A stretch of DNA of 19,479 bases, from the NCBI GenBank assembly GCA_025351125.1, contig JANXWN010000459.1, positions 1-19,479 on the forward strand. The letters are read 5' to 3'. Source of the DNA: Caulobacteraceae bacterium. Its GTDB lineage: Bacteria; Pseudomonadota; Alphaproteobacteria; Caulobacterales; Caulobacteraceae. Below, in pieces: positions 3,546-19,216 of this stretch; the first letter of the stretch is position 1, and the number at the start of each line of letters is the position of its first letter. Position numbers and translations under genes: made by a program. Below the pieces are notes generated by a model, which saw nothing but the letters and a program-made list of their open reading frames with translations, was not told the DNA's origin and searched no databases.

Positions 3546-3922
3546 ATGTCTTCTCCCCGTTGTGGCTGTCTCAAGCGCCTCGCGGGAGTTGCGACCGCGT
3601 AAGCGCCCTAAAAGCTTTTCGAAGGCAAGTGTTCGTATACTGGGTTTGGACCTCAGATTGCGCCGCGCAACGAGGCATGTCCAGCGCCTCGCGCCACAAA
3701 CAATCAAATTTGTTGGTTTTTTGGGTCGGCTCGATTTCTGATCACAAATCGGATGGTCGATTAGCGCCGCGAACACCGTGCCCGCGGTCGCGCCATGTTC
3801 AGGTTGGGTTCATTGCGAGTTTGGCAAGGTGGAGCTGAAATTCCGTGCGAAAAAGTCGTTGGACGCGGAAGCCCCAGGCTGCGGATGTTTTTGAAAATGA
3901 CAAAGAAAAAGGGAATTACAGC
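3546..3922. other. Divergent intergenic region between receptor and surface-protein genes
   Basis: About 375 bases separate the leftward TonB receptor start from the rightward glycine-zipper gene start. Promoters for both should lie here. Both coding frames run open into it upstream of the chosen starts, but those extensions have no signal peptide or family match. An imperfect dyad (AACAATCAAATTTGTT, about 3701-3716) is the only symmetric site noticed. No Fur-like or FixK-like box was found. Confidence 0.5.
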
Positions 3923-5399: not shown

Positions 5400-6440
5400 T
5401 TATCCCGCGGCTCGCAGAAGCATGCCAAACAGGTCGCGCGGCTCGTCGGGATCGGCGAGCAGGTCGAGCTTCTCATAGAGCCCGGTACGTTCGATCTGGT
5501 CGTTGACGTAGCGCAGAGCCGCGAAGTCCTCGACCGCGAATCCCACCGAATCGAACAAGGTGATCGCCGCGGCGTCACGGCGCCCGGACTCTGCCCCCGT
5601 GATCACCCGCCACAATTCGGTGACCGGGTGGTCGGGCGGAAGTTGCTGGATCTCGCCCTCTATCCGGGTCTGCGGGGTGTACTCAACGAAAATGTCGGAA
5701 CGATTTAAAATATCGATATGCAACTCGGTTTTACCCGGGCAGTCGCCGCCGACGCCGTTGATGTGGATGCCCGGGCCGACCAGATTATCGGTCAGAATCG
5801 TGGCGCATTGCTTGTCAGCGGTGACGGTGGTGACGATCTGGGCGTCCAGAACCGCCTCCTCGACCGACCCTGTGACCGTCGTGTCGAAACCATAGGACAC
5901 GAGGTTACGCACGCACTTTTCGCTCGCGGAGCGGTCGATGTCATAGAGCCGCAAGCGATCCACGCCTAGGAGCGCCTTGAACGCCAAGGCCTGGAATTCC
6001 GCCTGGGCGCCGTTGCCGATCACCGCCATGGTCCGGGCGCCCGGAGGGGCGAGATATCGGGCCGCCAAAGCCGAGGTCGCGGCGGTGCGCAAGGCGGTGA
6101 GGATGGTCATCTCGGTCAGCAGCAGCGGATAGCCCGTGGCCACATCGGCCAGAACGCCAAACGCGGTCACGGTCTGGCGGCCATCCCGCGTGTTTTTGGG
6201 GTGACCGTTGACGTATTTGAAGCCGTATATCTTATCGTCGTTGGTCGGCATCAACTCGATGACCCCTTCGGTGCTGTGCGCGGCGACGCGGGCCGTCTTG
6301 TCGAACACCTCCCATCGGCGAAAATCGGCTTCAATGTACCCGGCGAGCTGAACCAAAAACGGTTCCACGCCGATGGCCAGAACCAACTTGAGCATGTGAT
6401 CGACGCTGACGAACGGGACGACGTTGAGTTCTCGGTGCAT
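5400..6440 (-). CDS. ocd: Ornithine cyclodeaminase
   Basis: The 346-residue cytosolic enzyme would convert L-ornithine to L-proline plus ammonia using bound NAD. It belongs to the ornithine cyclodeaminase/mu-crystallin family and has the usual length. Visible signatures are YGFKYVNGHPKN (Lys75, substrate site), the Rossmann dinucleotide loop GNGAQAE at 142-148, and GGDCPGKTEL with Asp233, which corresponds to the catalytic Asp of the Pseudomonas enzyme. It starts 3 nt after the arginase stop on the same strand, so translation is probably coupled. The pair makes a two-step arginine to ornithine to proline route yielding urea and ammonia. A run of nine G (5386-5394) lies just past its stop. Confidence 0.93.
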   Translation of the reverse strand: MHRELNVVPFVSVDHMLKLVLAIGVEPFLVQLAGYIEADFRRWEVFDKTARVAAHSTEGVIELMPTNDDKIYGFKYVNGHPKNTRDGRQTVTAFGVLADVATGYPLLLTEMTILTALRTAATSALAARYLAPPGARTMAVIGNGAQAEFQALAFKALLGVDRLRLYDIDRSASEKCVRNLVSYGFDTTVTGSVEEAVLDAQIVTTVTADKQCATILTDNLVGPGIHINGVGGDCPGKTELHIDILNRSDIFVEYTPQTRIEGEIQQLPPDHPVTELWRVITGAESGRRDAAAITLFDSVGFAVEDFAALRYVNDQIERTGLYEKLDLLADPDEPRDLFGMLLRAAG

Positions 6441-6443
6441 GGA

Positions 6444-7409
6444 TCAATAGACCATGGTCGGACGATCCATCACCCGACGCCCCATGAGCGACGCGGCGAG
6501 ATCGACCATCAACAGCGCGGTGCGACCGCGTTCATCCAGAAACGGATTGAGTTCGGCGAGGTCGAGGCTGGTGACAAGACCGCTGTCGTGGACCATCTCC
6601 ATGATCAGGTGAGCCTCGCGAAAGGTCGCGCCGCCGGGAACGGTGGTGCCAACGCCGGGCGCGATGCCGGGATCGAGAAAATCGACATCAAGGCTGACAT
6701 GCAGCAGGCCGTTAGACTCCGCCACACGTTGCAAAAACGTCTCCAGCGGCCGCGACACGCCGTGCTCATCAATCGCCCGCATATCGAGGATAGTGACGCC
6801 GGCGGCGACCGCCGCCGCCCGCTCGGCCAGATCGACGCTGCGAATGCCCATCATAAACACATTGGCTGGCTTGACCGGTTGAACCGGCGGGAAATAACCC
6901 TCGAAACCGGGCTGCCCGGTGACGTAGGCGACCGGCACGCCGTGCAAATTGCCGCTGACCGTGGTCGCCAGGGTGTGGAAATCGGTGTGAGCGTCGAGCC
7001 ACAGCACGAACAGCTCCCGCTCGGTCTCGGCGGCGTAACGGCTTAACCCGCGGATCGAGCCGGCCGCCAGACTATGATCGCCACCAAACACGATCGGCAG
7101 GCCTTCCGCGGCGGCGCGGTAGGTCGCTTCGGCGATCACCTCGATCCAGGCGATGATCTCCGGCAAGGCGCGCACGGCGGCGTTGGGGTGAGTCACGACG
7201 CGGCGCGGCGGGGCGACCAAGTTCCCACGATCCAGCACCACGTGTCCCAAGGCCTCCAGCGCCGCGCCCAGACCGGCGACGCGAAAAGCGCTTGGTCCCA
7301 TCTCGCACCCGGCTTGGCCGGCGCCGTCCTGTACTGGCGCTCCCAACAAGATACACGTCGATGAACGCAATGGACTCCCTTTCATTTTTTCGTCGGCCGC
7401 CAATAGCAT
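6444..7409 (-). CDS. rocF: Arginase
   Basis: The product (321 residues from this start) is a cytosolic binuclear-manganese enzyme that hydrolyses arginine to ornithine and urea. All metal ligands are in place: GGDHS (His112), DAHTD (Asp139, His141, Asp143) and SLDVDFLDP (Asp241, Asp243). The SGNLHG segment (152-157) is the arginase form of the substrate loop, as opposed to agmatinase or formimidoglutamase. The frame opens at 7409, but the ATG at 7385 (MKGSPLRSSTCILLGAP) fits the normal arginase N-terminus as well; neither has a good ribosome site. It is first in an operon with ornithine cyclodeaminase and divergent from fixL. No ArgR or Lrp site could be identified in the 267-base gap. Confidence 0.93.
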   Translation of the reverse strand: MLLAADEKMKGSPLRSSTCILLGAPVQDGAGQAGCEMGPSAFRVAGLGAALEALGHVVLDRGNLVAPPRRVVTHPNAAVRALPEIIAWIEVIAEATYRAAAEGLPIVFGGDHSLAAGSIRGLSRYAAETERELFVLWLDAHTDFHTLATTVSGNLHGVPVAYVTGQPGFEGYFPPVQPVKPANVFMMGIRSVDLAERAAAVAAGVTILDMRAIDEHGVSRPLETFLQRVAESNGLLHVSLDVDFLDPGIAPGVGTTVPGGATFREAHLIMEMVHDSGLVTSLDLAELNPFLDERGRTALLMVDLAASLMGRRVMDRPTMVY

Positions 7410-7676: not shown

Positions 7677-8849
7677 GTGGGATCGCTTAAAACGCCGCGC
7701 ACGCCCCGCTCTACCCCGCGGTCCAGCGACACGTTGCGCGCCCGCGAGGCTCACCTGCAATCGATCCTCGACACCGTTCCGGACGCCATGGTGGTGATCA
7801 GTCAAACCGGCGTTATTCTGTCCTTCAGCGCCGCCGCCGAGCGGCTGTTCGGTTGGAGCTCGGGCGAAGCGTTGGGCCGCAATGTGAGTTTTTTAATGCC
7901 CGAACCTTATGCGACGCAGCATGACGGTTATCTGCAGCGTTATCTGTCGACCGGGGAGCGGCGGATCATTGGTATCGGTCGGGTGGTATCGGGGCTCAGG
8001 CGAGACGGATCGACCTTCCCGATGGAATTGTCAGTCGGCGAGGTCGCCGACGCCGCCGCGCCGCTGTTCACCGGTTTCGTCCGTGACCTGACCGCCCGTC
8101 AGGAGAACGCCAATCGGATGCAGGAACTGCAACAGGAGTTGGCGCACGCAGGCCGCGTCAGCACCATGGGTGAGATGGCCTCCGCCCTAGCTCATGAACT
8201 CAATCAGCCGCTCTCGGCGATCACCTTGTTGCTGCAGGGAGCGGCGCGGTTGGTAAATCGCGGCGATCCGGCGGATGCACCCAAGGTATCGGAGGCGTTG
8301 GTAAAGGCCGCCGATCAGGCCATTCGCGCGGGTGACGTCATTCGCAAGCTGCGCGATTTCATGGGGCGTGGAGAAACCGAACGGCGCCTTGAGAATTTGT
8401 CGCGGATCATCCACGAAGCCTGCGCCCTGGCGCTGGTCGGGGCAAAAGAACGGCAAATCCATTTGACGCTGGAGCTCGATCCCCGGTGCGATCAAGTGCT
8501 GGCCGACCGGGTGCAGGTCCAGCAGGTGCTTATTAACCTGCTGCGCAACGCGATGGATGCGATGGATGCCGTCGAGCGGCGTCAATTGGTTGTCCGAACG
8601 ACGATTCACAACGGGCAACTCACACGCGTTCAAGTGAGCGATACGGGCCCCGGTATCAGCGACGATATGCGTGAAACGCTGTTCACGCCGTTCACGACCA
8701 GCAAGAAGGATGGGATGGGGGTCGGCCTTTCGATATGCCGCACGATCGTCGAAGCGCACGGCGGCGCGATCTGGGCGGAACCCAGTCTGGGGGGTGGCGC
8801 GACGATCACCTTCACCCTGCCAAGAGAGACGGAGGAGTTGGAGGCGTGA
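7677..8849 (+). CDS. fixL: Oxygen-sensing haem-PAS histidine kinase FixL
   Basis: The 390-residue product is a soluble sensor kinase that would autophosphorylate when haem-bound oxygen is lost and pass the phosphate to FixJ. The PAS domain (about residues 22-140) is very close to rhizobial FixL ([25 protein letters not shown]). It keeps the haem-ligand histidine His82, Arg88 and the oxygen-contact Arg102, with the same spacing as His200/Arg206/Arg220 of Bradyrhizobium FixL. The kinase part has an H-box ALAHELNQP (His173), N-box (Asn287, Asn291), DTGPG (322-326) and GMGVGLS (346-352). There is no transmembrane segment and only one PAS domain. The start is a GTG with AGAGGA 7 nt upstream. It overlaps fixJ by 4 nt (GTGA). 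Confidence 0.96.
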
Positions 8850-9451
8850 CAGCGGTACAAGTTCATATCGTCGACGACGACGCGGCCGTGCGAGACGCCT
8901 TGGTATTCCTGCTCTCGACCGAGGACATTGTCGCCAGGGGCTATGATTCTGGGGCGGCCTTTTTGCTTGTCGCTCGTGAGGCGCGGGGGTGCATTGTTAC
9001 CGACGTGCGGATGCCGGATATGGACGGACTGGAGTTAACCCGACGGTTGAAAGCGATGGCGGTCAACCTTCCCATTATCATCATCACCGGGCATGCGGAT
9101 GTGCCGCTGGCGGTGGAGGCGATGAAGGGGGGCGTCGCGGATTTCATCGAGAAACCGTTCGACGACGACGCCATCTTGGATGCCGTGCGCCGCGCTTTGG
9201 CGACCCGCTCGCATAGGGAGGCCCAGTCCGCGGAGCAAACCGCGTCGGTCGCTCGTCTGGCGGTGCTCTCGCCGCGCGAACGGCAGGTGATGCAAGGCCT
9301 CGTGGACGGCAAGGCCAACAAGGTGATCGCGCACGACTTGGACATCAGCCCTCGCACCGTGGAAATTTATCGCGCTCACGTGATGACCAAAACCGGCGCC
9401 AAGAGTCTATCCGGGCTGGTAAGGTTGGCTTTGACCGCAGGGTTGGATTGA
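8846..9451 (+). CDS. fixJ: Response regulator FixJ
   Basis: The 201-residue product is the transcription activator partner of FixL. The receiver domain (1-120) has the acidic pocket Asp10-Asp12, phosphoacceptor Asp53 ([11 protein letters not shown]), Thr81 (ITGHADV) and Lys103 (EKPF). The output domain (about 138-197) is a LuxR/NarL helix-turn-helix ([35 protein letters not shown]). The start is the GTG at 8846, inside the GTGA overlap with the fixL stop, preceded by GGAGGAG; the frame upstream of it is only a shadow of fixL. The expected target is the fixK promoter, whose gene lies 1.3 kb downstream. No FixT-like inhibitor gene is present. Confidence 0.95.
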
Positions 9452-9575: not shown

Positions 9576-10433
9576 TCAATGGGCGATCAAAAGGTGGGGA
9601 CCTTGGGCGTCACCGAGAAGATCGCGCGTGGCGCCGCCGAAGAGGGCTTCTTGCAAACGGGAATGTTGGTATGCCCCCGCGACCAGAAGGCCTGCGTCGC
9701 AGCCTTTGGCGGCTGTCAACAAGGCTCTTCCAATTTTTGGACCGTCGACTCTGATGACGTCTTTGACATCCACGCCGTGGCGCGAGAGATAGGCCGTCAC
9801 CCGTTTAGGATCCGCCGGCGCGCCGGGGCTGGTATCGAGTCGAGCGGGGACCTGAAGCACGGCGACCCACGCGGCATCGCGCAGAAGCGGCGCCGCCGCG
9901 CGCACGGCGCGGCCGGCCTCCAAACTACCGTCCCATGCGATGGCGGCGGGGCGTCCGGCGGCGGACCTTGTGTCTCGCGCCACGTAAACCGGTGTGCGCG
10001 CATCCATCAGGGCTTCTCCCAGCGCGCCGTTCCAGGGTCCCTCGCCCGTCACATTAGACTGCGCAATAAACAGTAAATCGACCAACGCGAGTTCGGCCAT
10101 CAGCGCAGCCGCGCCTCCATCTTTGGTTCTAATGTGAAACAAATCGGCGTGGAGTTCCGGCTTCGTCGACGCAGGGTGTCCTGGCGAATATCTGGCGATG
10201 AGCGCTTCGATCTTCGCCTCAATTGCTTTCTGTTCGGCGTCGAGGGCGTACCAAGTCTGCGGCGAGACGACTGCGCCGGCGAAAATGGGTGTCGCCAAAG
10301 CGACGGGCGTTGACAGAACGGCGATTACGCCGGCGCGGGACTGATGACGAACGGCGATATCGGCGGCGACGGCGACCGCCGCTTCGTCGTCCGGAGCATC
10401 ACTGACAACGGCTAAAAGCGATAGTTCAGTCAT
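9576..10433 (-). CDS. Tandem-domain universal stress protein (UspA family)
   Basis: The 285-residue cytosolic protein has two UspA folds in tandem (about 1-140 and 150-285). The second keeps a nucleotide-loop signature near the C-terminus (GAYQHSRLQEALFGGATR then LLGDAQGPHLLIAH); the first half is more divergent. I chose the ATG at 10433 because GGAGGA precedes it by about 8 nt; the frame runs open a further 21 codons with no support. It lies between fixJ (convergent) and fixK (divergent), and a FixK/FNR box is centred about 56 nt upstream of the start. That suggests induction under low oxygen, as for many usp genes in FixK/FNR regulons. Confidence 0.88.
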   Translation of the reverse strand: MTELSLLAVVSDAPDDEAAVAVAADIAVRHQSRAGVIAVLSTPVALATPIFAGAVVSPQTWYALDAEQKAIEAKIEALIARYSPGHPASTKPELHADLFHIRTKDGGAAALMAELALVDLLFIAQSNVTGEGPWNGALGEALMDARTPVYVARDTRSAAGRPAAIAWDGSLEAGRAVRAAAPLLRDAAWVAVLQVPARLDTSPGAPADPKRVTAYLSRHGVDVKDVIRVDGPKIGRALLTAAKGCDAGLLVAGAYQHSRLQEALFGGATRDLLGDAQGPHLLIAH

Positions 10434-10482
10434 GGAAATATCCTCCGACCCGACGACTACACCGCCGCGGCGAGGCGGCGCC

Positions 10483-10496
10483 TTGATTGAGGTCAA
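10483..10496. promoter_or_regulatory. FixK/FNR box upstream of the universal stress gene
   Basis: TTGATTGAGGTCAA matches TTGAT-N4-ATCAA with one mismatch (GTCAA for ATCAA) and the looser TTGA-N6-TCAA exactly. Its centre is about 56 nt before the usp ATG on the minus strand. A class II promoter with the box at -41.5 would start transcription about 15 nt before that ATG. fixK itself starts 254 nt to the right, so the box could also act there. Confidence 0.7.
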
Positions 10497-10680: not shown

Positions 10681-10750
10681 CGACCGTAATTTCGCACCGT
10701 CCTGGGTCTGGCTACCCTTTCTTTTCAACCTGATGAGAAGGATTGCTTCC

Positions 10751-11419
10751 ATGCCCGCCCGTTCCATCAAATCCCCCCCAACGATCAAAACGCCTGTTGT
10801 GATCGATCACTCGAGCCCGGAAATCGACCGCCTGCGGCTCGTGGGCATGACGCGCGGATACGTGGGGGGACAGGAGGTTTTCGGCGAGGGTGAGCGTGCG
10901 AACAACGTTTACAGCGTAATCTCCGGCGCGGTGCGATCGTTCCGTGTGCTGGCCGACGGTCGCCGACAGATCCTGGATTTTTACCTGCCGGGCGACATGT
11001 TCGGCGTCGAAATAGGCCCTGATCACGGCGCGGGCGCCGAATCCGTCGACGACGTCGTCCTTCTCGTCGCGCGACGTTTACTTGTCGCGGATGACGGCGA
11101 CGGAGCAATGACGCGGCGGCTGTTACGCCTCGCCAAAGATGATCTGAGGCGCAGCCATGATCACGTCCTGACCCTGGGACGCAGAACGGCATGCGAGCGC
11201 GTCGCGAGCTTCCTCAACGATTTGGCCGCTCGGCTCGAGAGGCCCCGGTCTCTGGACCTGCCGATGGGCCGCCAAGACATCGCCGATTATCTGGGTCTGA
11301 CGATCGAAACTGTTTCGCGCACCTTTACTCGGTTCCAGACGATCGGGCTAATCCAGATGCACGGGCGCAGAACGGTGGAACTCTCTCGGCCAAACGCTCT
11401 CAGCGCTCTTTGCGCCTAG
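10751..11419 (+). CDS. fixK: Crp/Fnr-family regulator FixK
   Basis: The 222-residue product is a CRP/FNR-superfamily activator of micro-oxic genes. A cyclic-nucleotide-type beta-roll (about 35-115) is followed by a dimer helix and a winged helix-turn-helix (about 170-200). The recognition helix has Glu186-x2-Ser189-Arg190, the ExxSR signature that reads TTGAT half-sites. There is no N-terminal cysteine cluster, so it is FixK-type rather than an Fe-S FNR/FnrN. Aligned on that helix, the position of the redox-sensitive Cys183 of Bradyrhizobium FixK2 is Gly173 here, and the only cysteines are Cys148 and Cys221. I chose the ATG at 10751 because AAGGA lies about 9 nt upstream; an ATG at 10733 has no ribosome site. 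Matching boxes lie before usp and the ba3 oxidase operon. Confidence 0.92.
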   Translation: MPARSIKSPPTIKTPVVIDHSSPEIDRLRLVGMTRGYVGGQEVFGEGERANNVYSVISGAVRSFRVLADGRRQILDFYLPGDMFGVEIGPDHGAGAESVDDVVLLVARRLLVADDGDGAMTRRLLRLAKDDLRRSHDHVLTLGRRTACERVASFLNDLAARLERPRSLDLPMGRQDIADYLGLTIETVSRTFTRFQTIGLIQMHGRRTVELSRPNALSALCA

Positions 11420-11442: not shown

Positions 11443-11470
11443 AGCGCCTAAGGACAATCCCTTAGGCGCT
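11443..11470. terminator. Perfect 11-bp inverted repeat after fixK (terminator or operator)
   Basis: AGCGCCTAAGG, a 6-nt loop (ACAATC), then CCTTAGGCGCT forms a perfect hairpin 24 nt past the fixK stop and 70 nt before the HiPIP start. No T run follows, so it is not a classic intrinsic terminator. It may separate fixK from hip transcription or be a protein-binding dyad, since it repeats the CTTAGG core found upstream of fixK. Confidence 0.5.
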
Positions 11471-11539: not shown

Positions 11540-11824
11540 ATGTCCATCTCTAAAATTCAGTCCGCCGAAGGATTCTCGCGCCGCCGGTTAATTTTCAATA
11601 TCGGAGTACTCGGCGCCGGCCTGGCGAGCGTCGCCCTCGCGCCTGCGGTTGCGCGCGCCGGACCGTCAAAGCTTGATCAACGCTCCGCCGCCTATCAGCC
11701 GACCCCGAAGGGGAAGGCCCGCTGTGACAACTGCACGCAATGGCAGGCGCCCGACGCCTGCAAGCTGGTGGAGGGCAAGATCTCCCCCGCGGGCTGGTGC
11801 GTCCTTTATGCGCGCAAACCCTAA
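11540..11824 (+). CDS. hip: High-potential iron-sulfur protein (HiPIP), Tat-exported
   Basis: The 94-residue precursor of a small periplasmic [4Fe-4S] electron carrier. The N-terminus has a twin-arginine signal (SRRRLIFNIG, then a hydrophobic stretch to AVARA, about residue 40), as needed for export of a folded cluster protein. The mature part of about 54 residues has Cys62-x2-Cys65-x8-Cys74-x12-Cys87, the HiPIP pattern, with GWC near the end. This is the short form seen in Iro-type iron-oxidation HiPIPs and in PioC. GAAGGA precedes the ATG. It starts 120 nt after fixK and 15 nt before the Cyc2-like gene, so it very likely forms an operon with the latter. No FixK box lies directly in front. 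Confidence 0.92.
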   Translation: MSISKIQSAEGFSRRRLIFNIGVLGAGLASVALAPAVARAGPSKLDQRSAAYQPTPKGKARCDNCTQWQAPDACKLVEGKISPAGWCVLYARKP

Positions 11825-11839
11825 GGCGGGGATCGCAAC

Positions 11840-13153
11840 ATGCGCGGATTCTTCGTTTGCGCCTTCGCCGGGCTCGCCGCCATCGCGACGCCGGTGGCGG
11901 CGGTGCCGTCCTTCGCCGTTCAGACCGGTCGGCAGTGCGCCGCCTGCCACGTCGGCGGTTTCGGACCGCAGCTGACGCCGTTTGGGCGGCAGTTCAAACT
12001 GAGTGGCTATACGATGCGGACGACGGGCTTCAATCTGCCGGTGTCGGCGATGGTCGTGGCGTCCTACGTCAAAACCAAGCAAGACCAAGCGCCGTCGCCC
12101 GGCTTTAGCGCCAACGATAATGTCGCACTGGATCAGATCAGCTTGTTTGTCGCCGGCGGTCTTGGCAAGCATTTGGGCGCCTTCATCCAGACAACCTATG
12201 ACGGCATCGCCAAGACTTGGCATTGGGACAATTTAGATGCTCGCGTGGTCACTACCACCACGATCAAAGGCGCGCCGGTGATATTGGGACTCAGCCTCAA
12301 CAACGCACCAACGGTGCAAGACGCTTTCAACACTTTGCCGGCCTGGGCCTTTCCCTACACCGGGTCGGCGCTGGCGCCGTCGCCCGGCGCGTCTCCCCTG
12401 GTGGGCCATTTGGCGCAAAATACGTTGGGTCTTACCGCCTATGCCTGGATCAACTCGCAAGTTTATGCCGAGTTTGGCGGTTATCGCTCGCCCGGCGCAA
12501 ATTTCCTCACCCGGGCCGGTGTCGATCCTTTGAATCCCGGCCAAATCGACGGCGTGGCGCCTTACGCCCGCGTCGCCTATCAAAAAAATTTCGGCGATCG
12601 CAATGTCGAAGTCGGCGCCTTCCTTTTACACGCCAATCTTTTTCCGGGGCGCGATCAAACCACCGGCTTAAGCGATCACTATGCCGACCTTGGCTTGGAT
12701 GCGTCCTACCAAGTGTTCAGCGCCAACAAATCAGTGTTGACGGTTAATGGTCGCTACACCCACGAGGCCCAGGGTCTCGACGCATCCCAGGCGCTCGGGC
12801 TGGCAAGCCGCGCGGATAACACTCTGCAAGAGGCGCGCATCGATACGTCGTATTACTGGCGCGGGGTGGTTGGCGCTTCTGTAGGCGCATTCAACACCTG
12901 GGGCTCACGCGACGACCTGCTCTATAGCTCCAATCGAACATTACGCCCCGACAGTAGGGGCCTGACCTTTCAGATCGACGGCACCCCCTTCGGCGAGGGC
13001 GGATCGCCGCTGGGACCACGCTTCAACATGCGAGTTGGCCTACAATACACCGCCTACTTACGCTTCGACGGGGCGACCAGCGACTACGACGGGCTGGGCC
13101 ACAACGCCTCGGACAACAACACCTTTCGGGTGTTTACTTGGGTGGCGTACTGA
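11840..13153 (+). CDS. cyc2: Cyc2-like outer-membrane monoheme cytochrome-porin
   Basis: The 437-residue product has a signal peptide (to about residue 21, AVA-AVPSF), one haem c motif CAACH at 33-37, and then a long beta-rich region ending in the aromatic tail FTWVAY typical of outer-membrane barrels. The haem segment, FAVQTGRQCAACH then LTPFGRQFKLSGYT, matches the conserved N-terminus of Cyc2 proteins as I know them, and the length fits the family's fused cytochrome-porin plan of roughly 16 strands. Cyc2 accepts electrons from extracellular Fe(II) at the outer membrane. Relatives exist outside known iron oxidisers, so the substrate is uncertain. The gene follows HiPIP by 15 nt, with GGGGAT as ribosome site, and converges on the ba3 oxidase operon, its possible electron sink. 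Confidence 0.75.
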   Translation: MRGFFVCAFAGLAAIATPVAAVPSFAVQTGRQCAACHVGGFGPQLTPFGRQFKLSGYTMRTTGFNLPVSAMVVASYVKTKQDQAPSPGFSANDNVALDQISLFVAGGLGKHLGAFIQTTYDGIAKTWHWDNLDARVVTTTTIKGAPVILGLSLNNAPTVQDAFNTLPAWAFPYTGSALAPSPGASPLVGHLAQNTLGLTAYAWINSQVYAEFGGYRSPGANFLTRAGVDPLNPGQIDGVAPYARVAYQKNFGDRNVEVGAFLLHANLFPGRDQTTGLSDHYADLGLDASYQVFSANKSVLTVNGRYTHEAQGLDASQALGLASRADNTLQEARIDTSYYWRGVVGASVGAFNTWGSRDDLLYSSNRTLRPDSRGLTFQIDGTPFGEGGSPLGPRFNMRVGLQYTAYLRFDGATSDYDGLGHNASDNNTFRVFTWVAY

Positions 13154-13219
13154 GCTTCGAGATCACGGTCGACGCTTACGAAAACCTTCTGCCGGATTAG
13201 GTGTGATCAATTCATTCCC

Positions 13220-14032
13220 TTAACGCAGCCCCTGATAGTAGGCGGCCAGCCGAGTCATTTCGTTGGGAGTCAGCTTTTGAGCGACACTACGCATCCGACC
13301 ATAAACGTCGTTGCGCCGCGCCCCTGATCCGTAGGCCTGCAACTGCGCCAGGAGATAAGCCTGTTTTTGGCCATACAGGCGCGGCGTCTCGATCGGGCCG
13401 CCCGCGTTGACGCCGTGACAGGACTCGCAGGCGGGCAAGGTCCGCCCCGGATCGCCGTCGCGCACCAGGGCGATGATTTCGGGATCGGGCACCGGCCAGC
13501 GAGGGCCGAGCCCCGCGAAACCGTTGTCGTGCGCAAGGTAGGCGGCAACGTTGAACATCCGCGCGTCGGTAAGCGGGAGGACCACCGCCGACATGACGGG
13601 ATTGATCCGGGCGTTCGTTTTATAGTCGGAAAGTTGCTTGTAGATGGCGGCTGCGGACTGGTCGGCCAGGGAAGGGAAAGCGGGATTTTCAGAAACCCCT
13701 TCCGCACCGTGGCAGACCGCGCAGGTCTCCGCGACCGTGCGTGCGCCCTCGCGCCGATCGGCGTGCGCCAGACGTTCGATGAGGCCGCGGTCGAATACCA
13801 CTGCAGAAACAGGTGTCGTCCCAACCAAGTATCCGCCCCGCGTCGGCGGCGGCGTTTGGCTGAGCCCGAACGCGCGGCAGACCGCCACCCACGGGCTGAG
13901 GCCAAGACTGCCGGCCTGGCTGAGCGGAGTGACCACGAAAGCCATCACGGCGGCGAAGAGCGCCAGGCCGACCACCAACGCCCCGGCGATCATAAACCAG
14001 GTTTTGCCTGTGGCGGGAGATATTTCAGTCAT
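13220..14032 (-). CDS. Membrane-anchored di-heme cytochrome c
   Basis: The 270-residue product has one N-terminal transmembrane anchor (about 12-35) and two periplasmic class I cytochrome c domains with haem motifs CAVCH (104-108) and CESCH (202-206). Likely axial methionines are Met147 and Met247. The tandem arrangement is c4-like, as in Cyc1 of Acidithiobacillus, and would hand electrons to the CuA site of subunit II. I chose the ATG at 14032, 4 nt after the subunit I stop, because the hydrophobic anchor follows directly; the longer frame runs back into subunit I. It is the last gene of the oxidase operon and converges with the Cyc2-like gene, leaving a 66-nt gap. Confidence 0.88.
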   Translation of the reverse strand: MTEISPATGKTWFMIAGALVVGLALFAAVMAFVVTPLSQAGSLGLSPWVAVCRAFGLSQTPPPTRGGYLVGTTPVSAVVFDRGLIERLAHADRREGARTVAETCAVCHGAEGVSENPAFPSLADQSAAAIYKQLSDYKTNARINPVMSAVVLPLTDARMFNVAAYLAHDNGFAGLGPRWPVPDPEIIALVRDGDPGRTLPACESCHGVNAGGPIETPRLYGQKQAYLLAQLQAYGSGARRNDVYGRMRSVAQKLTPNEMTRLAAYYQGLR

Positions 14033-14036
14033 GGTC

Positions 14037-15677
14037 TCAACCACCGCCCATCCGGTGCGCCATGGCGCCGGGTGCGTGCATCGCCAAGCCATGCAGAATT
14101 GGAAATCCATACGCTGCCGCCATGAGCGCCGCTACGCAAAGATTCCAAAACCAGAAGCCGTTGAGAATCGCCGGAACGCGCGTCGGCGGGTGGACGGCCA
14201 CCGCATAGCGAAATGGCGGCGGAGCGGTATCGATCGTTGCACGCCGCAGAGACGCGAGGTTGACGATGAAGAGAACGGCCGCGGCCAACAAAATCAAGCC
14301 GCCGATTAAGGAAACGACGACCCACGGACCCCATCCGGCAATCCGCGGATCGGCATAGTTGAAGCTCGCGACCCGTCGCCATTGCCCGCCCAATCCTAGG
14401 ACGTGCCAGGGGATCGTCATCACCATCATACCGATGGCCCACAGCCATAGTTGCAAATTAAGAAGCTTCGTCGAAGCAAAAGCGCGCCCCTGCAACGTCG
14501 GCCAGATTTCATAGGCGATGGCGAAATACATGATAACGACCGTTCCGCCGAAAATCAGGTGGAAGTGTGCGGTGACCCACGATGTGTTGTGCACCATCGC
14601 GTTCATCGCCAAGCTCATGTTGATCACGCCGCCAAAGCCGCCGAACCACAACATGAAAAACGCCAGGCCTGTCGCCAGCACCATCGGCCGCTCCCACGGC
14701 AGGGCGCCGATCCAGCCGAACAGGCCTTTGCCGCCGCGCAATCGCCCTGCGATTTCCAACGACGCCGGAACGGTAAAAATGGTGAGCAGAGTCGGCACGG
14801 TGACCAGAACCGTCAAGGTCATCTGCAAAAATTTAAACCCCGTGGAATGTTCGGGATCCATGAACAGGTGGTGCAAACCAACCGGGAGGCTGTAGAGAAG
14901 AAACAGGATAAAGCTGAGGCGACCCATCGTGTCGCTGAACAGCCGCCCCCCCGCCGCACGGGGAGCCAAGGTGTAAAAAGCGACATAGGCCGGCAGGAGC
15001 CAGAAATACACGATGGGGTGCAGAGTCCAGGAAAACAGCGTCCGCGCCAAGCCGACGTCAATCAATTGCGTCCAACCGAACGCAACCGGAATGACCTGAA
15101 ACAACAGTTCGGCCGCGACGCCGACCGTTGTCCAAAGCCACATCACTGCATTGGCCACGGTAGCGTACATGGCCAACGGAACGGGCCGGCCGGGGTTTTC
15201 TCGCTTCCACGTCGCCATGGCGACGATCATCAACACACACCAAATCCACGATGCGCCGACTACCAGGACCAGACCGATGTAAAACCAAGGCGTTGCGGTC
15301 ATTGGCGGATAGAACGTATACAGCACCGACGCGCGACCGCTCAAAATGCTCGCGACCGTCATCGCCACGCCGACGATCCCGGCCCAAAACGCCAACCACG
15401 CCCAAGTTTTGCCGGGCAAGGCCCGCTGTAGCGACGTCTCGGCAACGAAGTAGCCGAAACCCATGATGAAGAAGGTGGTCAGCACGTACGCCATGGAGAC
15501 GCCATGCGCCGTCACCGAGAGGTAATAATTGGCCGGGCTATGCCAGGGTGCAGGCAACGGGCTGCGGGCCCACATCTGCCAAACACCCAAAATAACCGCC
15601 AAGCCGAAGGTCGCGAAGGCGACCCACAGGTGCGCGAGGGTCAGACGTCTAACGGTGAGCACAGGCCACCCTTCCAT
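14037..15677 (-). CDS. cbaA: B-type (ba3-like) cytochrome c oxidase subunit I
   Basis: The catalytic subunit (546 residues, about 13 membrane helices) reduces oxygen to water and pumps protons. The low-spin haem ligands are His58 (VTAHG) and His373. CuB ligands are His220 (WTLHPIVYFW), His269 and His270 (GLHHLF), and the high-spin haem ligand is His371 (TAHFH). Tyr224, the residue crosslinked to the CuB histidine, is present, which argues for an oxygen reductase and against a nitric oxide reductase. ARTLFSWTLHPIVYFWLLPAY and SLEIAGRLRGGKGLFGWI are very like Thermus ba3. B-type enzymes have high oxygen affinity. The ATG at 15677 overlaps subunit II by 29 nt; a GTG at 15662 has a better ribosome site (GGAAGGG) and may be the true start. 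Confidence 0.93.
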   Translation of the reverse strand: MEGWPVLTVRRLTLAHLWVAFATFGLAVILGVWQMWARSPLPAPWHSPANYYLSVTAHGVSMAYVLTTFFIMGFGYFVAETSLQRALPGKTWAWLAFWAGIVGVAMTVASILSGRASVLYTFYPPMTATPWFYIGLVLVVGASWIWCVLMIVAMATWKRENPGRPVPLAMYATVANAVMWLWTTVGVAAELLFQVIPVAFGWTQLIDVGLARTLFSWTLHPIVYFWLLPAYVAFYTLAPRAAGGRLFSDTMGRLSFILFLLYSLPVGLHHLFMDPEHSTGFKFLQMTLTVLVTVPTLLTIFTVPASLEIAGRLRGGKGLFGWIGALPWERPMVLATGLAFFMLWFGGFGGVINMSLAMNAMVHNTSWVTAHFHLIFGGTVVIMYFAIAYEIWPTLQGRAFASTKLLNLQLWLWAIGMMVMTIPWHVLGLGGQWRRVASFNYADPRIAGWGPWVVVSLIGGLILLAAAVLFIVNLASLRRATIDTAPPPFRYAVAVHPPTRVPAILNGFWFWNLCVAALMAAAYGFPILHGLAMHAPGAMAHRMGGG

Positions 15678-16194
15678 CCGGTCCGGGCCTAAAATCGGCC
15701 GGAGGCACCACGCGCACGTTGGCGATCATCTGGCTGTGCCCCAATCCGCAGAACTCGTGACACGGCATCAGCAGGTCGCCGGCATGGCGAAATACCGTCG
15801 TCACTTGCGAGATATAGCCAGGGACGACCATGGTGTTGGCATTGGTTCCTTGGATCAGAATGCCATGGATCACGTCGGGGCTGGAAAAGCGCAGGGCGAC
15901 TGGTCGCCCTGCCGGTACGACGAGACAGGCGGGCGTGAATTGAAACTGTGCGGTGACGATCCGCGCCACCACCGCGCCGTCGGGCGTGACCGAGGTTCCG
16001 AGATTGGCTTCGGTGAATTCACGCGACAAGTGCAAGGTTTTTGGATCGATAATGGCGCCATTGCTGGGAGGACTGAGCCCCATCGCAATCGCCGACCACA
16101 CGATGGCCGCGAATATGACGGCGATGGTCGCGGCGACAAACAGCCCCCAGCGGCGTTCGCTGGCGACGACCTCCCGTTCGGTCACCGCCGGCAT
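15649..16194 (-). CDS. cbaB: ba3-type cytochrome c oxidase subunit II (CuA)
   Basis: The 181-residue product has one N-terminal transmembrane helix (about 17-40) and a periplasmic cupredoxin domain holding the CuA centre. The ligands are intact: His110 (DVIHGILIQGTN) and Cys145-x3-Cys149-x3-His153-x2-Met156 (PCHEFCGLGHSQM). The short single-helix form and GTNAN...VPG...CGLGH pattern are those of ba3-type subunit II. It takes electrons from cytochrome c or HiPIP and passes them to subunit I. I chose the ATG at 16194, one base after the subunit IIa stop, because the earlier in-frame ATG at 16242 lies inside that gene. Confidence 0.93.
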   Translation of the reverse strand: MPAVTEREVVASERRWGLFVAATIAVIFAAIVWSAIAMGLSPPSNGAIIDPKTLHLSREFTEANLGTSVTPDGAVVARIVTAQFQFTPACLVVPAGRPVALRFSSPDVIHGILIQGTNANTMVVPGYISQVTTVFRHAGDLLMPCHEFCGLGHSQMIANVRVVPPADFRPGPDGRVACAHR

Positions 16195-16195
16195 G

Positions 16196-16372
16196 CTAAG
16201 CCACCGGCCCGCGCGGCAAAAACACCAGGAGGTAAACGGCAAACCAAGCGGCGACCAGCAAACCCGCCGTCAACAACGCCAAGGCGAACGCGCCCCGCGG
16301 CGCCTCCTGCATCACGTGGTCGGGCAGCGGTCCGCCATCTTCAACAGGGACGATCATCTCCTCTTGCGTCAT
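16196..16372 (-). CDS. Small ba3 oxidase subunit IIa-like membrane protein
   Basis: The 58-residue product starts MTQEEMIVPVEDGG, has a soluble N-terminal segment of about 25 residues, one transmembrane helix (about 28-52, FALALLTAGLLVAAWFAVYL) and a short FLPRGPVA tail. Position and shape match the subunit IIa found before subunit II in ba3 operons, which supplies the helix missing from the one-helix subunit II. It ends one base before the subunit II ATG. The sequence is too short for certainty. It is first in the operon, and the FixK box is centred about 66 nt upstream of its start. Confidence 0.75.
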   Translation of the reverse strand: MTQEEMIVPVEDGGPLPDHVMQEAPRGAFALALLTAGLLVAAWFAVYLLVFLPRGPVA

Positions 16373-16431
16373 GAGTCTAAACTTTCGTCGCTGAGCGAAC
16401 GAGAGGTTGGCAGCGGGGAAAGGGTCTATCC

Positions 16432-16445
16432 TTGATCCAGATCAA
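16432..16445. promoter_or_regulatory. Perfect FixK/FNR box upstream of the ba3 oxidase operon
   Basis: TTGATCCAGATCAA is an exact TTGAT-N4-ATCAA palindrome. Its centre is 66 nt before the subunit IIa start on the minus strand. With the box at -41.5, transcription would begin about 25 nt before that ATG, a normal class II arrangement. It lies about 85 nt before the rightward radical SAM gene, which has its own promoter closer by, so the oxidase is the more likely target. Confidence 0.85.
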
Positions 16446-16494
16446 ACGCCGCGACCGCGATGTGCCGCGATCGAGAACTGCAGGCACATGCCGC

Positions 16495-16530
16495 TTGCCA
16501 GAACAAACTGGGAACATTATACACTTTGGA
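16495..16530 (+). promoter_or_regulatory. Sigma-70-type promoter of the radical SAM/udgX operon
   Basis: TTGCCA (16495-16500), a 17-bp spacer and TATACA (16518-16523) form a good housekeeping promoter with optimal spacing. The predicted start of transcription is about 16530, on or next to a candidate ATG. This means translation is either leaderless at 16530 or begins at the in-frame ATG at 16548. Confidence 0.65.
16501..16515. promoter_or_regulatory. LexA (SOS) box within the promoter spacer
   Basis: GAACAAACTGGGAAC is GAAC-N7-GAAC, the reverse complement of the alphaproteobacterial LexA direct repeat GTTC-N7-GTTC. It fills most of the spacer between the -35 and -10 elements, so bound LexA would block RNA polymerase. 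Its genes are DNA-repair related, which supports the reading. Confidence 0.75.
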
Positions 16531-17777
16531 TGGCTCGTCTCAATCTTATGCGCAAGCTTTCGGTGTTGGCCGACGCGGCTAAATATGATGCATCGTGTGC
16601 GTCGTCGGGCGGCGCGAAACGTGATTCGAGGGGAGGAACCGGCGTCGGCGCGACCGGCGGCATGGGGGTTTGCCATGCTTATACGCCCGATGGCCGCTGC
16701 GTTTCGCTGTTGAAGATATTGTTGACGAATTTTTGCGTGTTCGACTGCGTTTATTGCGTCAATCGATCATCCTCCAACGTGGAGCGGGCGCGGTTTTCGG
16801 TGAAGGAGGTGGTCGACCTCACCCTGGATTTTTATAAGCGCAATTATATCGAGGGGCTGTTCCTGTCGTCCGGCGTGATTCGCTCGGCCGACTATACGCA
16901 GGAGCAGATGAACCGGGTGGCCCAGTCGCTGCGTCTTGACCACGATTATCGCGGCTATATCCATCTCAAATTGGTAGCGGGCGCCAGCCCGGAGCTGGCG
17001 GCGGAGGCCGGCATCTACGCCGACCGGCTGTCGGTCAATATCGAACTGCCGCTGGACGCCAGTTTGGCGCGATTGGCGCCGGAAAAATCGATCGGTGATA
17101 TCAAGCGAGCCATGGGGCGAGTCCGGCTTGGGCTGGAGGATGCGGGCGACCGCAGCCACACCGGCCGCCGCCCCCCGGCTTTCGCTCCGGCCGGCCAATC
17201 TACCCAGATGGTGGTCGGCGCGGACGAGGCTACCGATGCGGACGTGTTGACCCGCGCCGATCACCTTTATGGCGCGTATAAGCTGCGCCGGGTCTACTAT
17301 TCCGCGTTCAGCCCGATACCGGATTCGAGCGCCGCACTGCCGCTGGAACGGCCGCACCTTATGCGCGAGCACCGACTTTACCAAGCCGACTGGCTGATGC
17401 GATTCTATGGTTTTGGGCGGGCTGAGATTTTGTCAGCCGCGCCCGGTGGCATGCTTGATCCCGCCATCGACCCTAAACTTGCTTGGGCGCTGGCTAACCG
17501 TGACCGGTTTCCCATGGACGTCAATCGCGCCGATCGGGAAATGCTCCTGCGCATTCCCGGTCTCGGCGCGAAGACCGTGGATCGGCTGATCGGCGTGCGG
17601 CGTCTGAAGCGCGTGACGCTGGACGACCTGCAACGGCTGGCCGGATCGGTGAAGCGGGCGCGTTCATTTGTGATCTGCGAGGGCTGGACGCCTGGCGCCG
17701 AGACCGACGCGCCCGATCTTCGCGCCCGGTTGGCGACCCCGTCACGGCGGGCCGCCGTACAACTGTCGTTGTTCTGA
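16530..17777 (+). CDS. Radical SAM DNA modification/repair protein (UdgX partner)
   Basis: The 415-residue product belongs to the radical SAM family that co-occurs with UdgX and is annotated as putative DNA modification/repair; its reaction is unknown. The start MRKLSVLADAAKYDASCASSGG is the family opening. The [4Fe-4S]-AdoMet motif is Cys69-x3-Cys73-x2-Cys76 (FCVFDCVYCVNR). A helix-hairpin-helix DNA-binding motif (RIPGLGAKTVDRLIG, from residue 341) follows the barrel. The last residues, QLSLF, match the beta sliding-clamp binding consensus. The frame runs open to 16407, but upstream codons cross the promoter and LexA box; 16530 (at the predicted transcription start) or 16548 is the likely start. 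It overlaps udgX by one base (TGATG). Confidence 0.9.
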   Translation: MARLNLMRKLSVLADAAKYDASCASSGGAKRDSRGGTGVGATGGMGVCHAYTPDGRCVSLLKILLTNFCVFDCVYCVNRSSSNVERARFSVKEVVDLTLDFYKRNYIEGLFLSSGVIRSADYTQEQMNRVAQSLRLDHDYRGYIHLKLVAGASPELAAEAGIYADRLSVNIELPLDASLARLAPEKSIGDIKRAMGRVRLGLEDAGDRSHTGRRPPAFAPAGQSTQMVVGADEATDADVLTRADHLYGAYKLRRVYYSAFSPIPDSSAALPLERPHLMREHRLYQADWLMRFYGFGRAEILSAAPGGMLDPAIDPKLAWALANRDRFPMDVNRADREMLLRIPGLGAKTVDRLIGVRRLKRVTLDDLQRLAGSVKRARSFVICEGWTPGAETDAPDLRARLATPSRRAAVQLSLF

Positions 17778-19216
17778 TGTTTGACGTCACCCTCGCGTCG
17801 GAGACCGACTTTGAGGGCTGGCGGACCGCGGCCCGAAGACTGAGGATGGCCGGGATCGCGCCGGACGTGGTGGACTGGCGGGTGGGCGTGGCTAGTCGGT
17901 CCCTGTTCGCCGAGCCACTGCCGCAACCGACGCTCGGCGCGGCGTTCAGCGCTTCGCGCGCCTTCCTCGACCTCGCCGGCGATGTAATTTTGCATCGGTC
18001 GGGGCGACGTCTAGATCTGCTCTACCGCCTGCTGTGGCGCATGAAGGACGAACCCCGCCTGATCGAAATCGCCAGTGATCCGGACGTGCGCGCCGCCGCT
18101 TTAATGCGCAAGTCGGTGCGCGAGGCGATCCACAAGATGCACGCCTTCGTCCGCTTTCGGCGGCTCGAGGGCGAAGACGAGGAAACTTTTGTCGCTTGGT
18201 TCGAACCGGCCCACCGGGTGGCTTTCGCCGCCGCCGATTGGTTCGTTCGGCGAATGACGAATCTGAAATTTTCGATCCTTACGCCCGAAGTGGGCGTCCA
18301 CTGGAACGGGACGGCGCTCGTGAGCTCTGTCGGCCTCAACCGCAGCCATGCGCCCCCGGAGGATGAGTTGGAAAACTATTGGCGCACGTATTACGCGTCG
18401 ATATTCAACCCGGCGCGGTTAAATCCGGCGGTCATGACCCAGCATATGGCGCAAAAATATTGGCGCAATTTGCCCGAGGCCGACGTCATTCCTCAGTTGA
18501 TCAGGCAGGCGCGAGGTCGCACGGATATGATGGTTCAAGCCGATCCCACGCCGCCCACGCGACGCGCCATCCGTATCGCCGCGCGCCAGCCCAACGCCGC
18601 CGGCTCGGACGTAGGCGACATCCCGCAAACTTTGGCGCAAGTCGCGGCCGGCGTGAAGCATTGCCGCCGGTGCCACTTGTGGCGGGACGCGACGCAGGGC
18701 GTGCCCGGCGAAGGTCCGGCGCGCGCCACGCTGATGCTGGTCGGCGAACAACCAGGTGATCGGGAGGATCTGGCCGGCCGCCCCTTTATCGGTCCCGCCG
18801 GGGCACTTCTAAATTCGGCTTTGGCCCAGGCGGGCGCGCCGCGCGAAGATTTCTACGTCACCAATGCGGTCAAACACTTTAAGCACGAGTTGCGCGGCAA
18901 GAGACGTTTACACAGAGCGCCCAACGCGGGAGAAATTCAGGCCTGCCGTTGGTGGCTCGACAACGAGCGGCGGCTGGTGCGGCCCAAGGTCATCGTGGCG
19001 CTGGGCGCGACGGCGGCCAGCGCGATCCTTGGCCGGACGGTTTCGGTGTTGAAAGCCAGGGGCAAAAACGAAATATTGGCTGACGGCGCCATCGCAGTCG
19101 TGACGGTGCACCCGTCCTATTTGTTGCGCATCCCCGACGCCGCAACCAAAGCCGCCGCCTACGATGATTTTGTGCGTGACCTGAGGACTGCGTATGCCTT
19201 GGCCAAGGCCGTTTGA
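17777..19216 (+). CDS. udgX: UdgX uracil-DNA crosslinking protein fused to a DUF4130 domain
   Basis: The 479-residue protein has two parts. Residues 1-250 match the DUF4130 domain (YRLLWRMKDEP, VREAIHKMHAFVRFRR, AHRVAFAAADWFVRRM, PAVMTQHMAQKYWRNLPE), whose function is unknown. Residues 285-479 are a UdgX uracil-DNA glycosylase-fold protein: GEQPGDRED (323-331), GRPFIGPAGALL, the KRRLH loop (375-379) and HPSYLLRIP (445-453). In Mycobacterium UdgX the loop histidine becomes covalently linked to the abasic site left by uracil removal; its equivalent, His379, is present. Candidate Fe-S cysteines are Cys296, Cys299 and Cys390. KRRLH replaces the better-known KRRIH, a conservative change. It is translationally coupled to the radical SAM gene and shares its SOS-type promoter. 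Confidence 0.93.
   Translation: MFDVTLASETDFEGWRTAARRLRMAGIAPDVVDWRVGVASRSLFAEPLPQPTLGAAFSASRAFLDLAGDVILHRSGRRLDLLYRLLWRMKDEPRLIEIASDPDVRAAALMRKSVREAIHKMHAFVRFRRLEGEDEETFVAWFEPAHRVAFAAADWFVRRMTNLKFSILTPEVGVHWNGTALVSSVGLNRSHAPPEDELENYWRTYYASIFNPARLNPAVMTQHMAQKYWRNLPEADVIPQLIRQARGRTDMMVQADPTPPTRRAIRIAARQPNAAGSDVGDIPQTLAQVAAGVKHCRRCHLWRDATQGVPGEGPARATLMLVGEQPGDREDLAGRPFIGPAGALLNSALAQAGAPREDFYVTNAVKHFKHELRGKRRLHRAPNAGEIQACRWWLDNERRLVRPKVIVALGATAASAILGRTVSVLKARGKNEILADGAIAVVTVHPSYLLRIPDAATKAAAYDDFVRDLRTAYALAKAV

Follow-up and report, generated by a model that had tools for sequence, protein, structure and literature searches.

Does a HiPIP gene and a Cyc2-like gene lying beside a terminal oxidase amount to an iron-oxidation pathway in a member of the Caulobacteraceae? 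The locus in question lies on a stretch of 19,479 nucleotides from a Caulobacteraceae bacterium (GenBank assembly GCA_025351125.1, contig JANXWN010000459.1), referred to below as the window, which is one whole contig of a 2.36 Mb genome that is 83.8% complete. An earlier note, made from the letters alone, had proposed that the genes for a HiPIP, a Cyc2-like cytochrome-porin, a di-haem cytochrome c and a ba3-type oxidase together encode one electron chain from the cell surface to oxygen. All of these genes are present where the note had placed them or nearby, the ba3 set being complete, and the closest named homologues of the Cyc2-like protein are from Caulobacteraceae, in agreement with the alphaproteobacterial host that had been named. 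The single chain fared less well. The reading we favour, with a probability of about 0.5, is that the window carries a module for electron entry at low oxygen and, next to it, an independent ba3 oxidase, the two being possibly joined via the periplasm.

The Cyc2-like protein and its family position

The gene for the predicted monohaem cytochrome-porin (11840..13153, + strand) encodes 437 residues with a signal-peptide-like start, a single CXXCH motif (CAACH) at residue 33 and a C-terminal tyrosine. It has no match in Pfam or NCBIfam, and its assignment comes from profile comparison, tree and motifs. An alignment profile of 20 near rows was compared with one of 17 Cluster-1-type rows (Mariprofundus, Gallionella, Sideroxydans and others) and matched it at 98.8% with an E-value of 8e-17. 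Because this match spans 233 columns, the homology to Cyc2 extends beyond the haem motif, and judged by its sequence the window protein is a Cyc2 homologue. Homologues that are 83-90% identical to it (P0001 and P0002) are also on record.

Cyc2 has been proposed as a marker of iron oxidation, and its tree falls into three clusters (Keffer et al., 2021, PMC8406198). The features listed there are the motif AXPXFAR[Q/K][T/Y], which is termed unique to Cyc2, a CXXCH motif, a PXL motif set four residues downstream of it, and a barrel of 16 strands. Like Cyc2 so described, the window protein has one CXXCH near its N-terminus, A-x-P-x-F-A-x-Q-T before it and PxL after it, a length above 365 residues and an aromatic C-terminus, in addition to the signal-peptide-like start. 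It is unlike Cyc2 in carrying valine, at residue 27, for the arginine of FAR, and in that its PxL motif, PQL, follows CXXCH after five residues instead of four; among 106 wider homologues this spacing is 3 in 97 and 5 in 9. The remainder of the haem region is conserved. The C-terminal residue is aromatic in 118 of 120 near and 104 of 106 wider homologues, which together with a modest strand alternation is the basis on which we predict a beta-barrel.

A homologue search across 397 genomes of the phylum returned Cyc2-like matches in 69. The close ones belong to the window's own family, those with 34-47% identity to other families or classes, and the weak ones mostly to a single family (f41), three genomes of which have proteins in common with named Zetaproteobacteria including Mariprofundus erugo. 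In a tree of 102 rows (unrooted, quick search, SH-aLRT support only, near-copies L075, L106 and L111 left out), the window falls into a clade of 41 rows with support 100, made up of 40 family loci and one Polymorphobacter plasmid. This clade sits among proteins like those on plasmids of Caballeronia, Paraburkholderia, Ideonella and Methylocystis, and branches with support 100 separate the window side from the Cluster-1-type references. The tree includes 28 hand-picked members of at least 80 named reference loci found with a scan pattern that contained FARQTG, and assignment to Cluster 1 was by taxon and motif rather than by FeGenie. With references of the Cluster 1 type, the tree does not distinguish Cluster 2 from Cluster 3. 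Taken together, these comparisons place the protein as a Cyc2 homologue outside Cluster 1 which departs by one residue from one published membership feature. The Cyc2 identity put forward in the earlier note thus stood as far as homology is concerned and has to be qualified as to position and to the missing Cyc2-specific arginine. A screen for the Cyc2 motif would miss a clade such as this, which keeps the homology without the arginine.

Cyc2 homologues have been published for Hyphomicrobiales, Burkholderiales and Acetobacteraceae (PMC10654088, PMC10715153) and for Acidocella-type bacteria (PMC10715153). Our literature search returned no paper in which cyc2 occurs together with both Caulobacter and FixK, and none that joins it to soil, Caulobacteraceae and iron oxidation. 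As a side observation, the plasmids CP084173.1 and NC_009469.1 (L105 and L106), from Acidithiobacillus ferrooxidans and Acidiphilium cryptum, both have a Cyc2-like gene of the same kind, accompanied by a c-type cytochrome and by the same neighbour genes, as though these had been exchanged between the two genera.

The HiPIP and possible alternative periplasmic partners

Fifteen bp upstream of the Cyc2-like gene ends a gene (11540..11824, + strand) for a candidate periplasmic electron acceptor of 94 residues, with cysteines at residues 62, 65, 74 and 87 and an Arg-Arg pair at residue 14, in a stretch that we take to resemble a Tat signal. It just misses the cut-off of the Pfam HIPIP profile (21.7 bits against 22, E 2.5e-4) and reaches 62.8 bits with the NCBIfam equivalog model for Iro (NF041615), for which the cut-off is 100; the best solved structure is PioC (E 1.2e-10). 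With four cluster cysteines in HiPIP spacing and this profile evidence, its product classifies as a HiPIP of the PioC/Iro type. The cysteine spacing of 3-9-13 is the same as in Iro, for which Cys24, 27, 36 and 49 are quoted (PMC10654088), although the protein stays under the Iro cut-off; PioC is its top structural match, although its operon partner is a Cyc2-like gene where that of the Pio system is PioAB (PMC10654088).

The two genes form one operon, as the earlier note had held, and the pairing recurs. In 17 of 49 family loci, that of the window among them, the gene immediately before the Cyc2-like one encodes a HiPIP; the 49 loci, left from 53 matches after exclusion of four fragmentary or truncated ones, are related to each other, and several genomes contribute two. 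By BLAST, an upstream HiPIP was seen in 11 of 23 relative loci. Mapped on the tree, the HiPIP label changes six times, or at least three times if well-supported branches only are counted. Where the HiPIP is missing, a small monohaem cytochrome c is coupled to the Cyc2-like gene in 11 of 32 loci, as compared to none of the 17 with HiPIP (Fisher p 0.009, the loci not being independent); in these 11 (L037, L041, L042, L209, L214, L216, L219, L233, L234, L235 and L237) about 12 bases at the end of the Cyc2-like gene also belong to the open reading frame (ORF) of the cytochrome. Because such loci carry a coupled cytochrome instead, the HiPIP is plausibly the periplasmic partner of the Cyc2-like protein; in the simplest interpretation, either a HiPIP or a small cytochrome c accepts the electrons in the periplasm. 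Further afield, many Cyc2-like genes have a mono- or di-haem cytochrome c gene in their vicinity, also on annotated plasmids. The adjoining HiPIP or cytochrome c gene names the likely periplasmic acceptor, which makes the step after Cyc2 directly testable.

A survey of 299 family genomes with the Pfam HIPIP profile was uninformative on this point: it gave seven matches, and the 17 HiPIPs beside Cyc2-like genes, including that of the window, were not among them. It did show that four genomes whose Cyc2-like gene is solo (G001, G005, G453 and G583) have HiPIPs in other places.

The ba3 oxidase operon and putative low-oxygen control

Convergent to the HiPIP/Cyc2-like operon, an operon on the - strand (13220-16372) encodes, reading back, a small hydrophobic subunit (16196..16372), subunit II (COX2, 15649..16194), subunit I (COX1, 14037..15677, start estimated) and the di-haem cytochrome c (13220..14032). 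COX1 matches its Pfam profile with an E-value of 3e-87 and aligns with Thermus ba3 chains over 480 residues (E 2e-95 to 1e-92), the His motifs, which we take to be the haem and CuB ligands, being aligned. COX2 (PF00116, E 2e-8) carries the CuA-like stretch CHEFCGLGHSQM. The small subunit has no match in Pfam or NCBIfam, and counterparts 61-71% identical to it occur in four related ba3 operons. The cytochrome matches Pfam Cytochrom_C in two stretches, has the haem motifs CAVCH and CESCH and appears by eye to be membrane-anchored. By its sequence, with the motifs of subunits I and II intact, the enzyme is a genuine B-type (ba3) cytochrome c oxidase, as had been supposed; it shares the His and CuA-like motifs with Thermus ba3 and is unlike it in that the operon includes a di-haem cytochrome c and is preceded by a FixK-type box.

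This box, a perfect FixK/FNR-type palindrome TTGAT-N4-ATCAA (TTGATCCAGATCAA, 16432..16445), lies about 60 bp 5' of the ba3 operon in the window and likewise in genome G004 (L198), that is, in both ba3 operons seen in the genus. Such boxes, with at most one mismatch, also precede 14 of the 49 Cyc2-like operons (5 of 17 with HiPIP and 9 of 32 without), as opposed to 12 of the 325 ORFs taken from these loci for comparison. FixK/FNR-type boxes are thus enriched before Cyc2-like operons in the family by sequence count (Fisher p 2e-7 for 14/48, the window being left out; the loci are related, the 325 ORFs were picked mechanically and gene starts are estimated).

Regulators of matching type adjoin the locus, and the micro-oxic link suggested at the outset is supported by them and by the boxes. 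Upstream of the HiPIP gene the window contains, in this order, a FixL-like PAS/histidine kinase (7677..8849, + strand; PAS, HisKA and HATPase_c domains; 536.8 bits with NCBIfam sens_FixL_Rhizob, below the cut-off of 850), a FixJ-like response regulator (8846..9451, + strand; named by eye from its translation, start estimated), a universal stress protein (9576..10442, - strand; PF00582, E 1.2e-5) and a FixK-like regulator of the CRP/FNR family (10733..11419, + strand; Pfam HTH_Crp_2 and cNMP_binding; 208.8 bits with NCBIfam TransRegFixKCaul, below the cut-off of 300). A box with one mismatch (10483..10496, + strand) lies 5' of the stress-protein gene. FixK adjoins the Cyc2-like operon in locus L027 as well, and L029 has FixL, FixJ and FixK. 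The gap between fixK and the HiPIP gene holds a perfect 9+9 inverted repeat (11445..11468; CGCCTAAGG-N6-CCTTAGGCG; expected 0.01, fold z -4.4) without a T-run, which may be a terminator or an operator.

The proposal that the two operons serve one dedicated chain, from the Cyc2-like protein via HiPIP, di-haem cytochrome c and ba3 to oxygen and retained as a unit in the window species, draws on their immediate adjacency and on the perfect low-oxygen box before ba3; moreover, both members of the genus with ba3 have a HiPIP-type Cyc2-like gene. At an E-value of 1e-60 the window's own genome was the only one among 337 of the class with a COX1 match, and at 1e-30 six of the 299 family genomes matched, the window included. 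Three of these six ba3 carriers have a Cyc2-like gene somewhere, compared to 39 of the 299 genomes overall, which gives a weak hint that ba3 carriage is tied to Cyc2-like presence. Against the chain, the other three have no Cyc2-like match at all. The small subunit, COX2, COX1 and the di-haem cytochrome form one operon, complete without a Cyc2-like gene, in L195, L196 and L197 (L198 and L199 end at contig edges), and none of the five loci has a HiPIP or Cyc2-like gene in the flanks covered. Conversely, within the flanks covered (only about 4 kb in total for seven loci, and about 1.5 kb on each side for six of these), COX1 occurs beside the Cyc2-like gene in none of the 48 other family loci; in G004 the Cyc2-like gene is interior to another contig, and ba3 is absent for 7.6-8 kb around it. 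Because COX1 is absent from these 48 loci, the neighbourhood in the window is unusual and by itself no proof of one chain; the juxtaposition of the two operons would seem to be an isolated case. Transcription of the two operons is convergent and separate. Since relatives have the ba3 operon as a unit of its own and COX1 is missing beside other Cyc2-like genes, we rank the dedicated chain below the two-module reading and regard it as unlikely. Of the facing operons described in the earlier note, the convergent ba3/di-haem operon is real, and the locus comprises two units rather than one, with the di-haem gene as the last of the oxidase operon, which it also accompanies in relatives.

The rus operon of Acidithiobacillus reads cyc2-cyc1-cup-coxBACD-rus (PMC10654088). 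As there, a Cyc2 homologue, a di-haem cytochrome c and an oxidase are close together in the window. Unlike that one conserved operon, the window has two convergent operons, a HiPIP with no rusticyanin gene annotated in the locus, an oxidase of ba3 instead of aa3 type, and a di-haem cytochrome that belongs to the ba3 operon. We rejected the latter as a counterpart of Cyc1: it is 44-46% identical to di-haem proteins of ba3 operons as compared to 24-38% for those near other Cyc2-like genes. The terms cyc2, HiPIP and ba3 occur together in two papers which by their titles deal with Acidithiobacillus and bioleaching organisms (PMC7735108, PMC1142338).

The proposed function and its alternatives

In the two-module reading, the first module would consist of the HiPIP and an outer-membrane cytochrome-porin with a haem plug in its predicted beta-barrel. 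It would take single electrons inward from a donor outside the cell, for which dissolved Fe(II) is the most likely candidate, and hand them over in the periplasm to the HiPIP, or to the small cytochrome c in other members of the clade. The use of Fe(II) is only a prediction. The second module would be an oxidase of ba3 type for low oxygen, complete in itself, with a di-haem cytochrome c of its own and a FixK-type box in front of its operon. Electrons from the first module could plausibly reach it through the periplasm, unless they go to another c-type oxidase. They might provide extra energy for an organism without demonstrated CO2 fixation. A bolder version, which we offer tentatively and consider rather improbable as a whole, is that electron uptake at low oxygen in Caulobacteraceae is built on a Cyc2 clade which has lost the arginine and swaps its partner between HiPIP and monohaem cytochrome c, and that in the window species it feeds an acquired ba3 oxidase, so that Fe(II) is scavenged at trace oxygen without demonstrated CO2 fixation. 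Should the clade oxidise Fe(II), Caulobacteraceae would join the iron oxidisers, with oxygen control of the FixK/FNR type.

Genes elsewhere in the genus lend some support to the two-module reading. The search for carbon fixation and further Fe(II)-oxidation genes that the earlier note had suggested found neither RuBisCO nor an MtoA/PioA-type decahaem conduit in the window's 83.8%-complete genome. The RuBisCO large subunit is present in six of 16 genus genomes (G002, G003, G005, G008, G011 and G015), each of which has a solo-type Cyc2-like gene, and in none of 43 other family genomes tested. Decahaem matches occur in four of 179 family genomes (G008, G011 (fragments), G015 and G475), three of them with RuBisCO; at the solo Cyc2-like locus of G015 (L033:217-3654, contig C98) a decahaem gene with ten CXXCH motifs (TIGR03508) lies beside an MtrB/PioB barrel gene (PF11854, E 1e-74). 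RuBisCO in the genus and a relative of the window's gene that shares loci with MtoAB/PioAB-type genes speak for electron entry; they suggest that extracellular electron transfer takes place in the genus, though with relatives of the window's gene as the route.

Several observations weigh against electron entry from Fe(II) or against parts of it. The stretch corresponding to the Cyc2-specific motif reads AVPSFAVQT, one residue off, and its arginine is present in none of the 120 nearest homologues as compared to all 106 further homologues listed, which stem from an alignment whose rows carried arginine in five of six cases. Strand alternation shows 10 peaks where a barrel would be expected to give 16, and a search of solved structures returned no match backing a barrel. 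The decahaem genes accompany the solo Cyc2-like type and not that of the window, as does RuBisCO within the genus (6 of 8 genomes with the solo type vs none of 6 with the HiPIP type only; p 0.0097, the genomes being related). The proposed exchange of partners has exceptions: in the HiPIP-type locus L217 a one-haem ORF follows at a distance of 157 bp, and in Caballeronia HiPIP and cytochrome c are both present. As to oxygen control, the ba3 operons of other genera (L195-L197) have no box, the best candidates having 3-4 mismatches, and neither does the window's own HiPIP operon (best 3 mismatches). Furthermore, the nearest tree row to the window, L027 (support 91), is without a HiPIP; because of this and of the missing box before the HiPIP operon, we hold the dedicated chain to be slightly less probable, and a change of function slightly more so, than we would otherwise.

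In the latter case the clade would have departed from iron oxidation, the haem site without arginine serving another substrate or a non-respiratory stress role at low oxygen. This fits the replacement of the arginine throughout the nearest homologues, the occurrence of relatives in bacteria that are not known to oxidise iron, and the neighbours of solo members, which include a stress protein and an APH/AAA kinase-like gene. In the view of Keffer et al. (2021, PMC8406198), Clusters 2 and 3 are in large part untested and may have other functions. Yet the remaining haem region is conserved and the partner genes encode electron carriers, while the excerpted text of that paper does not state the role of the arginine; we consider a changed function improbable, next in order after the dedicated chain. 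Slightly less probable again is an outward module in which, at low oxygen, the HiPIP would pass electrons through the Cyc2-like protein to Fe(III) or another outside acceptor: FixK-type boxes suggest use under oxygen shortage and Cyc2 isoforms have been linked to Fe(III) reduction in acidithiobacilli (PMC10715153), but HiPIPs work at high potential (+0.05 to +0.5 V; PMC10654088), a ba3 oxidase is at hand, and MtoAB/PioAB-type genes occur in related loci with RuBisCO in those genomes.

Beyond the ba3 operon, at 16407-19216, a radical SAM gene (TIGR03916) is followed by a UdgX-family fusion (TIGR03914, TIGR03915), a putative DNA repair pair. At the other end of the window, 966-3776 and 5400-7409 appear, by eye from the translations, to hold genes for a TonB-type outer-membrane receptor, an ornithine-cyclodeaminase-like and an arginase-like protein.

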